Of a stretch of 64,000 nucleotides of DNA, positions 39,348 to 42,536 are shown piece by piece. The notes beneath the pieces were generated by a model that was not told the origin of the DNA, did no database searches, and saw only the letters and a program-made list of their open reading frames with translations. The translations under genes were made by a program, and so were the position numbers. The first letter of the stretch is position 1. Each line of letters starts with the position of its first letter. This DNA comes from Dyella dinghuensis (GTDB lineage Bacteria > Pseudomonadota > Gammaproteobacteria > Xanthomonadales > Rhodanobacteraceae): NCBI RefSeq assembly GCF_003977615.1, contig NZ_RYZR01000005.1, forward strand, positions 372,001-436,000, given 5' to 3'.

Positions 39348-39641
39348 GATCTCTCACTGACTACGTGGCATCAGATACCCGCGCTTCCCCCCTGTTATCC
39401 AGGAGCGGCTTTCCCCAGGGTTGCCGCAGCGCGGATGGAGAAAAGGTAACTCGATTATGGCGGCACGGCAAATCGCGTTGGACTTCACGTCCTGCGACGC
39501 AAATTGTTGGTAGGGGTACGAAAAATTCCTAGCTCGCTGTGCGGCTGGCGGAAAGGAAGGGGCATATAGAAGCGCGGCGGTGGAAAAGCGTCGACAGCGC
39601 AACACGACTTAACACTTCCGCGGGCGAGTCTGGTACCCGAT

Positions 39642-39735
39642 GCTTCATTTTGGGTTCCCCAAAATGAAGCGTCCCGGCAGATGCCGGGACGAAACGCTTT
39701 TCGAAGCACCTCCCTGCGCTGGGCACCGCAGGGAG
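39642..39735. repeat. Array of four consecutive hairpins downstream of the MetJ/H1-like gene
   Basis: Hairpin 1: gcttcattttggg (39642-39654) with its complement at 39658-39670. Hairpin 2: gtcccggca (39671-39679) with 39682-39690. Hairpin 3: gctt (39696-39699) closed by a TTCG loop with aagc (39704-39707). Hairpin 4: ctccctgcg (39710-39718) with 39727-39735. They abut with almost no spacers and lie just after the stop of the minus-strand gene, so they would form its 3' end. The remaining part of the 417-bp gap (39348-39641) shows no gene. Confidence 0.75.
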
Positions 39736-39764
39736 ACAATTCCGATAAAACTTAGTTGTTGTGC

Positions 39765-40289
39765 TTACTTCTTAGCTTTCGAAGTCTTGGTGGCCTTCAT
39801 GACCTTGGCAGCCGCTGCCTTCTTGGCAGTGCGCTTACGGGAAGCCTTGCGGGGTGCCTTTTTCGCAACGCGCTTGGCAGTGGCCTTCTTCGCGCCTACG
39901 CGCTTAGCGGCCTTCTTGGCAGTCTTGCGAACGGTGCGCTTCTTCGCAGTTGCCTTCTTGGCGACCGGCCGCTTCTTGGCGGCAGTCTTGCGAACAACGC
40001 GTTTCTTGGCGGCTTTCTTAGCCGATTTCCTAGCAGTTTTCTTGGCAGTGGCCATAGTTCGTCTCAGCTCCTCATCAGTTGGCAGTGGTTGCCCAGTAAA
40101 AGCGTGCAGGAACGCCTCAACCAGCAAATCGCTGTTCGTGGCGTGCCTTAAATTGTTCACCTGGCGGTAGGTGCGTAAATCCGAAAGCAGTCGCAGTACG
40201 TGCATCGGAATCGAAACGGTGATCTTTCTCACCGCGTCGGCTTTGGCGCCGTGTTCGACGTAAGGCTTTATGAATTTCGATGCCACCAT
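39765..40289 (-). CDS. MetJ-like ribbon-helix-helix domain fused to a histone H1-like lysine-rich tail
   Basis: A 174-residue DNA-binding protein in two parts. Residues 4-78 align with the methionine repressor MetJ: RKITVSIP is the DNA-reading strand, and [12 protein letters not shown] and [13 protein letters not shown] are nearly identical to E. coli MetJ as I remember it. Residues 79-174 are about two-thirds Lys, Ala and Arg in AKK/TAKK repeats, like histone H1 and AlgP-type tails, replacing the last MetJ helix. E. coli DERTRRQ reads DLRTYRQ here, changing positions near the AdoMet site, so corepressor binding is in doubt. Met79 (40055) could start the tail alone. No met gene lies nearby. 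Confidence 0.85.
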
Positions 40290-40317
40290 TGGTACTGTTC
40301 CCTGTTATATGGTGCGA

Positions 40318-40346
40318 AAGCTATTCCTGAACATTTCAACTGTCAA
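40318..40346 (-). promoter_or_regulatory. Probable sigma-70 promoter of the MetJ/H1-like gene
   Basis: On the minus strand a perfect TTGACA (-35, at 40341-40346) is followed after 17 bases by TAGCTT (-10, at 40318-40323, three of six matches). The start codon is 28 bases further on and has an aggga-like site. The -10 is weak, so support is moderate. Confidence 0.45.
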
Positions 40347-40827
40347 ATGATTTTCGCCATGAAATCAATCTGTTCGCTCCCGAGCGGGGACGACGGCGAC
40401 TATCTCAACGGGTGTGCGCTACTCACAAAAATCATTGTCGGCAGCCGTCCAAACATCTAAAGGGCTTGTATGGCGCATTTACAAAATGTGCAAAAAACAA
40501 GCTGAAAAACGTGATTTTTCTCATTGACGCTGATACACACCAATCGTCCATTGCATTCATTGCACGATGGATGACACGGCGCGATTTTCATGCCTGAAGA
40601 GGGTCAAATCGGAGCATGAACGAAATTCAACCGAGATGCGTCCGGGAGACGCCAAAAGGGTCCGAATTCGTCTCCGAACACCCTCGATGCATTCCGGAAC
40701 GACCTTGCGAGCGACCGATCGGAACGTCGTACACACCACCTCGCACGACATCATCGACGTCCGTTTTTGGATGATCGACACGGCGTGCGATCCCCCGTCG
40801 CGAGGATTTTTTCATACCGCAGAAACG
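40347..40827. other. Gene-poor intergenic region
   Basis: About 480 bp, AT-richer than its surroundings, between the MetJ/H1-like promoter and the gcvH terminator. Short open frames occur on both strands (for example 40567-40842 plus) but none has a ribosome-binding site, a recognisable family or a compositional coding signal. A small RNA or transferred remnant is possible; I see no specific structure. Confidence 0.5.
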
Positions 40828-40853
40828 ACGACGGCCGCCTAAGCGGCCGTCGT
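40828..40853 (-). terminator. Hairpin after gcvH, probable terminator
   Basis: acgacggccgc (40828-40838) and gcggccgtcgt (40843-40853) pair perfectly over 11 bp around ctaa. On the minus strand it lies 19 bp after the gcvH stop. The T-run that follows is short, so termination may be partial. Confidence 0.65.
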
Positions 40854-40872
40854 TAATCGCGCCGATCGGCGA

Positions 40873-41268
40873 TCAATGCTCTTCGTTTTCGATCAGTTCG
40901 GCGTAGGCGTCGGCGTCGAGCAGTTCGTCCAGCTCGCCGCGGTCGCTTGCCTTCACGGCGAAGATCCAGCCGTCGCCATAAGCATCTTCGTTGATGGTTT
41001 CGGGCTTGTCGTTGAGGTTTTCATTGACCTCGACAACCTCGCCGGAGACCGGGGAGTAAATGTCCGAAGCGGCCTTGACCGATTCGACCACGGCCGCGCC
41101 GGTACCGGCTTTCACCGAAGAACCGATCTCGGGAAGTTCAACGTAAACCAGGTCGCCGAGCTGGCCCTGCGCGTGGTCGGAGATGCCAACACGGATCAGG
41201 CCGTTGTCTTCGACACGGGCCCACTCGTGGGACTTGAGGAATTTCAGATCGCCGGGAATCTCGCTCAT
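40873..41268 (-). CDS. gcvH: Glycine cleavage system H protein
   Basis: Lipoyl carrier that shuttles the aminomethyl group between the P, T and L proteins. The 131 residues match, with the lipoylated lysine in [19 protein letters not shown] (Lys65). It follows gcvT by 99 bp on the same strand, so gcvT-gcvH is the likely transcription order. The P protein gene is not in the window. Confidence 0.97.
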
Positions 41269-41367
41269 GGTCGGGTCCAGTCGTCGTAGGTTTAGATCAG
41301 GGGTGTAAGCGTGGATTCTAACCGCTTCCGCCGCGGCTCAATACCCACTTTGTGATGAGGTTTGTCT

Positions 41368-42468
41368 TTAGATGCCTTCGCAGGGTTTGCCGTCGCGGAC
41401 GAAGGGAAACTTCACCATGCGAACCGGCACTTCCTTGCCGCGGATATCGACACGGACATTGTCCAATGCACCGACCGGCACGCGCGCGAACGCAACGGCT
41501 TTGTTCAAGGTCGGGGCAAAACTGCCGGAGAGAATTTCACCGTCGCCGCGATCGGTCAGCACTTTCTGGCCGTGACGCAATACACCTTTTTCGTCCAGCA
41601 CCAGGCCAACCATCGTGCTCGGCACGCCAGCAGCCTTCTGTGCTTCGAGTGCCTTGCGGCCGATGAAGTCGCGGCCTTCATCCAGTGAAATGGTCCACGC
41701 CAGTGCCGCTTCCCATGGCGTGACGTTCTCGTCCATGTCCTGGCCGTAAAGATTCATGCCGGCTTCGAGACGCAAGGTGTCGCGTGCACCCAGACCGCAA
41801 GGTGCAACACCGGCGGCCTTCAGTTCGTTCCACAAGTTCACAGCCTGATCTTCCGGCACGATGATTTCGAATCCGTCCTCGCCGGTGTAGCCGGTGCGTG
41901 CGATGAACAGCGCCACGCCGTGCGGTCCCTGCGCTGCGGCAGCGGCAAAGCGGCCGAGCTTCTCGATGCGCGCACGATCAACCTCATGCAGCAAGCCCAC
42001 GACCTTGGAGCGCGCATTCGGTCCCTGCACCGCGATCATCGCGAAGTCGGGGCGCTCCTGCACTTTCACGTCGAAGGCTTTTGCCTGCTTTTCGATCCAG
42101 GCCAGATCCTTGGCGCGCGTGGCCGCATTCACCACCAGGCGGAAGAATTCGTCGCCCAGGAAATAGACGATAAGGTCGTCGATCACGCCGCCCTGCTCGT
42201 TGAGCATGCAGGTGTACAGCGCCTTACCCTGCACTTTCAGCTTGTCGACGTTGTTGGCGACCAGATGACGCAGGAAGTCGCGCACCCGCTGGCCATGCAG
42301 ATCGACCACCGTCATGTGGGAGACGTCGAACATGCCGGCGTCGCGGCGCACGGCGTGATGCTCTTCGATCTGCGAGCCGTAACTGATCGGCATGTCCCAG
42401 CCACCGAAATCGACCATGCGCGCGCCAAGCTCGCGATGGGTGGCGTTGAGTACGGTCTTGTCGGTCAT
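41368..42468 (-). CDS. gcvT: Glycine cleavage system T protein (aminomethyltransferase)
   Basis: Transfers the methylene group from aminomethyl-H-protein to tetrahydrofolate and releases ammonia. The 366 residues show the family start [20 protein letters not shown] and [20 protein letters not shown], plus the [10 protein letters not shown] motif. The ATG at 42468 is used rather than the in-frame start ten codons upstream. Only 68 bp separate it from alkB, too short for a tandem glycine riboswitch, and none was seen. Confidence 0.96.
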
Positions 42469-42536
42469 TGCAGGTCTGCCAGGCTGGGGATCACACATTA
42501 TCTCTGCCGCTCTGCATCAATCCAAGCTGCACGGCA

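Follow-up and report, generated by a model that had tools for sequence, protein, structure and literature searches.

A tailed methionine repressor gene of Rhodanobacteraceae with a conserved putative internal start that may encode two nested proteins

MetJ is a textbook repressor, and in Dyella dinghuensis its gene runs in frame into a long lysine-rich extension, which raises the question of whether the encoded protein still serves methionine control and what the extension contributes. The sequence analysed here is a window of 64,000 nt (assembly GCF_003977615.1, contig NZ_RYZR01000005.1, positions 372,001-436,000), and all coordinates below refer to that window. The metJ-tail fusion is an open reading frame of 174 aa on the minus strand (39765..40289) whose translation exceeds the cut-offs of two MetJ profiles: Pfam PF01340 matched residues 5-83 (E = 1.1e-35, 121.9 bits, cut-off 25), and the NCBIfam MetJ equivalog matched the 174-aa protein with 126.4 bits (cut-off 110). 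In addition, phmmer aligned residues 4-83 with the E. coli MetJ chains in the PDB (1cma/1mj2) at an E-value of about 1e-30. The ribbon-helix-helix domain, located at residues 4-78 (40056..40280, minus strand) by the phmmer matches, the alignment and an AlphaFold model, lacks the last part of E. coli MetJ; the PF01340 match stops at profile position 83 of 97, and the tail stands where the C-terminal part with helix C would be. These matches bear out the original prediction of a MetJ domain at residues 4-78 whose last helix is replaced by a Lys/Ala/Arg tail of about 96 residues, and they exclude non-homology; a frameshift or assembly error at residue 78 is excluded by the identical in-frame junction in 73 loci from 26 genera. 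The AlphaFold model (mean pLDDT 60.5, pTM 0.36) reached block means of 75-87 over residues 21-90, that is, moderate confidence for the MetJ part, and fell below 50 over residues 105-174; it did not suffice for a fold search, a step that the sequence homology made unnecessary. Compared with E. coli MetJ (PF01340; 1cma), the window protein shares the ribbon-helix-helix fold, the DNA-reading strand, helices A and B and the presence of MET-box tandems at a methionine gene, but differs in the residues corresponding to Glu39 and Arg42, in the long basic tail and in a putative internal start. No second MetJ was found in the window's genome, in which the fusion is the sole copy. Judged by homology and by the operator sites described below, the 174-aa protein is MetJ.

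The final 99 residues of the fusion comprise 33 Lys, 13 Arg and 27 Ala, with neither Asp nor Glu, and the number of acidic residues in the tail ranges from 0 to 2 across 80 family loci. This composition agrees with the earlier description of the tail as histone H1-like; membership in the corresponding profiles does not, as Pfam HC2 scored the fusion protein at 10 bits (cut-off 40) and NCBIfam hist_H1_lk_Burk at 14.3 bits (cut-off 80). By profile, the fusion belongs to no known H1-like family. It shares with the proteins of these families a richness in Lys, Ala and Arg and the lack of acidic residues, whereas the Dyella tail lies far under their cut-offs and is joined to a repressor domain. A search of 20 genomes of other families for a free tail-like gene gave nothing at E-values up to 1e-5, which proves little with a low-complexity query, and the sole match of the tail in the window's own genome was the fusion gene. 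Lys/Ala tails are common, and the role of this one may be trivial. In one locus (L071 in genome G291) the tail reaches 312 aa, roughly threefold the usual length.

The distribution of the tail was examined in an order-wide sample of 398 Xanthomonadales genomes. MetJ was present in 145 of them: 125 from the window's family, Rhodanobacteraceae, and 13, 6 and 1 from three further families (f9, f12 and f8, respectively). No family genome without a MetJ match was found in this sample among the matches listed, and the family open frames are at least 137 aa long, apart from a piece at a contig edge (G386). In a larger family set, six genomes showed no MetJ (completeness figures 72%, none above 93%) and two contain fragments only. 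The tail is present, and the full-length frame open, in 80 of 80 intact family loci read. In contrast, the MetJ proteins of f8, f9 and f12 (20 loci) measure 79-97 aa and have no Lys/Ala tail; like the tailed proteins, their profile match stops early, at position 78-83 of 97. In a class-wide sample of 369 genomes, three from outside the order have MetJ, with frames of 112-118 aa. Mapping tailed MetJ-domain proteins by taxonomy, the check that accompanied the original prediction, thus identified the tail as a trait of the window's family, with its 125 MetJ-positive genomes. On a tree of the MetJ domain, a single change accounts for the tail (SH-aLRT 97), and likewise for the loss of Glu39; this tree came from a quick search with few columns, leaves most forks unresolved and omits L039. 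As the match stops short of the profile end in the sister families too, the loss of that end probably came before the tail. Duplicate loci (L001, L031, L032, L086) are absent from most tallies in this study, and three cut loci (L036, L037, L072) together with L096 are absent from those of the junction, the codon block, the own-gene MET box and residues 39/42, and from the tree. Locus L096 (genome G396) has an in-frame TGA in its MetJ part, which may be a sequencing error or may represent a natural tail without its repressor; the internal start block and the entire tail, both intact, follow it.

The excerpts of a methionine-regulon comparison (PMC4239095) place MetJ in six gamma-proteobacterial groups and in none of four Xanthomonadales genomes, to which SamR was assigned as the methionine regulator. 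In the same excerpts, SamR is likewise predicted to control methionine genes in this order, but is SahR-like and hence another regulator than MetJ (PMC4239095). The fusion lies in an order for which that comparison did not list MetJ. Among the matches listed from open-licence papers, none described a MetJ with a basic tail.

Two residues deserve particular attention. According to the sections seen of a simulation study of E. coli MetJ (PMC2775130), Glu39 and Arg42 interact with AdoMet and helix C stiffens when AdoMet binds; earlier mutagenesis cited there found that added positive charges were no substitute for the co-repressor. The alignment to PDB chains confirmed that the DERTRRQ of E. coli reads DLRTYRQ in the window protein, with Glu39 replaced by Leu (residue 38) and Arg42 by Tyr (residue 41), so that neither AdoMet contact is present. 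Among 80 tailed proteins, residues 39/42 are Glu/Arg in 47, Leu/Tyr in 18, Leu/His in 11, Leu/Glu in 2, and Leu/Ser and Glu/His in one each; all 16 genomes of the window's genus have Leu/Tyr, and all 20 untailed relatives keep Glu/Arg. The suggestion that AdoMet control may be lost is compatible with the window protein, in which both contacts are gone, and does not extend to the 47 of 80 tailed proteins that retain them; these same 47 led us to reject the idea that contact loss is a necessary consequence of the tail. Since the tree requires a single change for each, the tail was probably gained before one subclade gave up the contacts. We make no claim on the AdoMet dependence of the window protein, because the contact residues are absent from it. 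The family offers a natural set of variants in which the actual part played by AdoMet in MetJ could be studied.

To assess methionine control, the best tandem MET box was scored in a 480-base region covering the metX start and the sequence upstream of it. Each of the 37 MetJ-positive family genomes carries a tandem of 13-16/16 at a similar place before metX, including the 16 genomes of the window's genus, all Leu/Tyr (13-14/16), whereas the metX region of 12 of 12 MetJ-less relatives reached 9-10/16, the shuffle level (Mann-Whitney p = 3.8e-8, uncorrected for kinship). The 12 are those of 22 MetJ-less genomes in which metX was matched strongly, ten having a weak match or none; on the MetJ-positive side the comparison covers the tailed family, and the shuffles keep single-base content only. 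A MET-box tandem pattern matched 164 times across 18 family genomes and its reversed control 15 times, counted on both strands, so that near-palindromic sites count twice, and including some sites inside genes; in the two genomes from other families, pattern and control matched 2 and 2 times in one and 2 and 0 times in the other. The window's genome contains six such sites, one between the cysteine synthase gene cysK and metX-metB and one before cysJ, the other four being inside open frames or ambiguous. Because pattern hits also fall inside open frames elsewhere (L134, L137, L152 and others), hits alone were not counted as operators.

These sites weaken an argument of the original prediction: that no met gene lies close to the fusion says little when a MET-box tandem stands upstream of metX-metB elsewhere in the genome. 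In the portions seen of a proteomic study of Rhodanobacter thiooxydans FW510-R12, the protein named there as MetJ went up and four methionine enzymes went down (PMC12146267). Taken together, the tailed MetJ still looks like a methionine regulator from its predicted sites, and this family, absent from the MetJ list in the excerpts of PMC4239095, appears to place methionine genes under the textbook repressor. Recruitment away from methionine control is not supported, given the metX MET boxes in 37 of 37 genomes, 16 of them Leu/Tyr. In genome G352, one MET-box-like tandem lies close to a frame identified by eye as a glutamate synthase gene (L143) and another separates cysG from a CysB-like LysR regulator (L146), which suggests a wider sulphur/nitrogen regulon.

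The metJ gene itself is preceded by a degenerate tandem MET box (40443..40458, minus strand, 12/16) that starts 169 bp upstream. An own-gene box of at least 12/16 was found in 31 of 47 Glu/Arg, 10 of 11 Leu/His and 6 of 18 Leu/Tyr loci, making 47 of 80 tailed loci; a score of 12 also occurs in four loci of the small residue-39/42 groups.

The feature that the original prediction missed lies at the junction of the two parts, where a conserved candidate start could give rise to a separate tail protein. Codon 79 is an in-frame ATG (40053..40055, minus strand), and 72 of 73 loci (those with a genus assignment, from 26 genera) have an ATG at precisely this junction, including six with one codon fewer before it; from here the tail (39765..40055, minus strand), which stands out by its composition and by the low pLDDT of residues 105-174, would be translated as a separate short protein of 96 aa. 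Codons 63-79 (40053..40103, minus strand) form a synonymously frozen block with a Shine-Dalgarno-like GAGGAG, a candidate internal initiation region. Mean codon identity is 0.864 for codons 63-77 and 0.512 for codons 2-62 (24 sequences, 23 genera), and the best 10-codon window reaches 0.916 in the block, compared with never more than 0.76 in gcvH (19 sequences); this set omits genera g7 (that of the exceptional L015), g17 and g43, and like the junction counts is uncorrected for kinship. Arg76 is AGA in 68 of 68 loci that have Arg there, against 3 AGA among 215 Arg codons in eight window genes, a cleaner background than that over the loci, for which the longest and possibly spurious open frame per locus was used. 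Eight sequences shown from f8, f9 and f12 differ from the block at synonymous positions, as judged by eye.

Predicted physical properties of the start region also fit an initiation site in part. In the window, the region is predicted to pair with the 16S tail at -11.5 kcal/mol, more strongly than any of 300 synonymous shuffles (mean -4.0), and to fold at -19.6 kcal/mol, compared with -28.0 for the shuffles. With shuffles that took the window's codon usage for every species, folding was weaker than the shuffle mean in 17 of 18 loci (within the top 4% in 16; L015 folds more strongly), anti-Shine-Dalgarno pairing passed the 5% limit set by the shuffles in 11 of 18 (the exceptions being L002, L003, L015, L016, L025, L042 and L078), and openness of positions -20 to +9 passed it in 3 of 18. 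Among 70 internal in-frame ATGs of nine window genes, codon 79 alone combined such weak folding with such strong pairing. Two properties fit a simple initiation site less well: GAGGAG lies 12 nt from the ATG, a long spacing for a Shine-Dalgarno sequence, and the frozen block extends about 48 nt upstream, beyond what such a sequence needs.

The block with its ATG was recovered in 221 of 233 family genomes and 25 of 26 genera, and the reversed control gave none among the matches listed. The 12 misses comprise L206 and L207, which keep the ATG and most of the block and vary at its 5' end while being constant near the ATG; L205, where a contig edge falls inside the block; two genomes with MetJ fragments only; six without any MetJ; and L015 (G021), the one true exception. 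Among the complete family genes seen, L015 alone lacks the junction ATG and has GTG instead, has also lost the frozen block and comes from the sole genome of its genus in the sample; judging from the codon, its GTG could still initiate. Four genomes (G794, G810, G840, G841) contain two copies of the block and ATG. Several other readings of the block were discarded. The four Rfam matches in 39600-41300 all score below their gathering thresholds and lie outside the block; what looks like a GGCA/TGCC hairpin is disrupted in L003, and predicted folding of the region is weaker than that of its shuffles; a consensus scan found no internal sigma-70 promoter, although it also missed the conserved metJ element described below; and a hammerhead-like reading was considered and dropped.

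These patterns lead us to propose two products, the tailed MetJ repressor and a separate H1-like protein of 96 aa, and the simplest account of the block would be a translation initiation region within the metJ coding sequence that supplies the free tail beside the fusion. A second product from an internal in-frame start has a parallel in Cas11b as presented in the excerpts of PMC11899642, where gene and function are different; here, the tail-only product is a prediction from sequence. Across the family, coding and ribosome-binding constraints seem to overlap, and from the frozen start one would expect a small DNA-binding protein of a kind that standard gene annotation overlooks.

Three alternatives were weighed against this account. 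The gene may make a single product, a tailed MetJ whose tail does nothing but raise DNA affinity, with the block acting as another mRNA element such as a small-RNA target or a stability or pausing site. The open full-length frame in all 80 intact loci is compatible with this, the block is longer than a Shine-Dalgarno region, and the variation of L206 and L207 at the 5' end, with the ATG-near part constant, hints that parts of the block may differ in role. However, the block ends at an ATG that is kept in 72 of 73 loci even where a codon is missing, its combination of low structure and strong pairing is unmatched among the 70 internal ATGs, and no Rfam match overlaps it; we regard a single product as unlikely. 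A programmed +1 frameshift at GAG GAG CTR, with GAGGAG as stimulator, would instead free a tail-less MetJ ending at a +1 TGA or TAA, and codon 75 (CTG, CTA or TTA) does provide this stop in nearly all loci among those listed. Yet CTT at codon 75 abolishes it in L007, L038 and L085, where the block is still present, and the kept ATG would be left unexplained, which makes frameshifting highly improbable.

The interpretation first offered, that a MetJ fold was recruited as a nucleoid protein and lost methionine regulation, draws on the scarcity of acidic residues in the tail at all 80 loci, and on the joint absence of Glu39/Arg42 and decay of the metJ MET box in much of the window's genus. It conflicts with the metX MET boxes retained in 16 of 16 genomes of that very genus, with the 47 tailed proteins that keep both contacts, and with the Rhodanobacter proteomic trend, which in the portions seen fits a repressor (PMC12146267). 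We consider it very doubtful, although a nucleoid role in itself is conceivable.

The explanation that we favour, and hold to be fairly probable, is that a methionine repressor gene was rebuilt to make two nested proteins. The full-length MetJ-type repressor would recognise tandem MET boxes, as the sequences support, and control methionine and sulphur assimilation genes, namely metX-metB and probably cysJ. Its disordered polycationic tail may add non-specific DNA affinity, so that tailed MetJ would grip operators and the DNA beside them more firmly than its E. coli counterpart, and in Dyella and Rhodanobacter it may have relaxed the need for the Glu39/Arg42 contacts with AdoMet; this last step is opposed by the failure of added charges to replace the co-repressor in E. 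coli, as cited in the sections seen of PMC2775130. Finally, the computations strongly suggest that the final MetJ codons harbour a Shine-Dalgarno sequence and an ATG from which a 96-aa protein (MATAKK...) is translated; this would be an H1-like DNA-coating protein from the same mRNA. The broader claim, that throughout the family one gene in one frame yields both an H1-tailed methionine repressor and, by way of an internal ribosome-binding site, a free H1-like nucleoid protein, is in our judgement evenly balanced. If true, it would couple nucleoid coating to methionine/AdoMet status at the level of a single mRNA.

The flanks of the gene add several observations. An alignment of 39 upstream regions revealed a promoter-like element, TTGACA-17-TAGCTT, 29-57 bp upstream of metJ (40318..40346, minus strand), to which a sigma-70 consensus scan gave no match. 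The metJ MET-box tandem lies about 100 bp further up. The gap between gcvH and metJ spans 372-1,168 bp in the family, and a second promoter or a small RNA is possible within it. Downstream of metJ, a terminator-like hairpin (39670..39691, minus strand) is a weak candidate, with two found in the region against 2.0 expected in shuffles, and a TonB_C protein follows metJ in the window and in 61 of the 80 intact family loci, a count limited by flanks that in some cases were too short. Upstream, gcvT and gcvH (40873-42498) lie on the same strand as metJ, and gcvH occupies this position in 70 of the 80 intact loci, a count with the same limit. The proximity of gcvH and gcvT to metJ may reflect a link between one-carbon and methionine metabolism.
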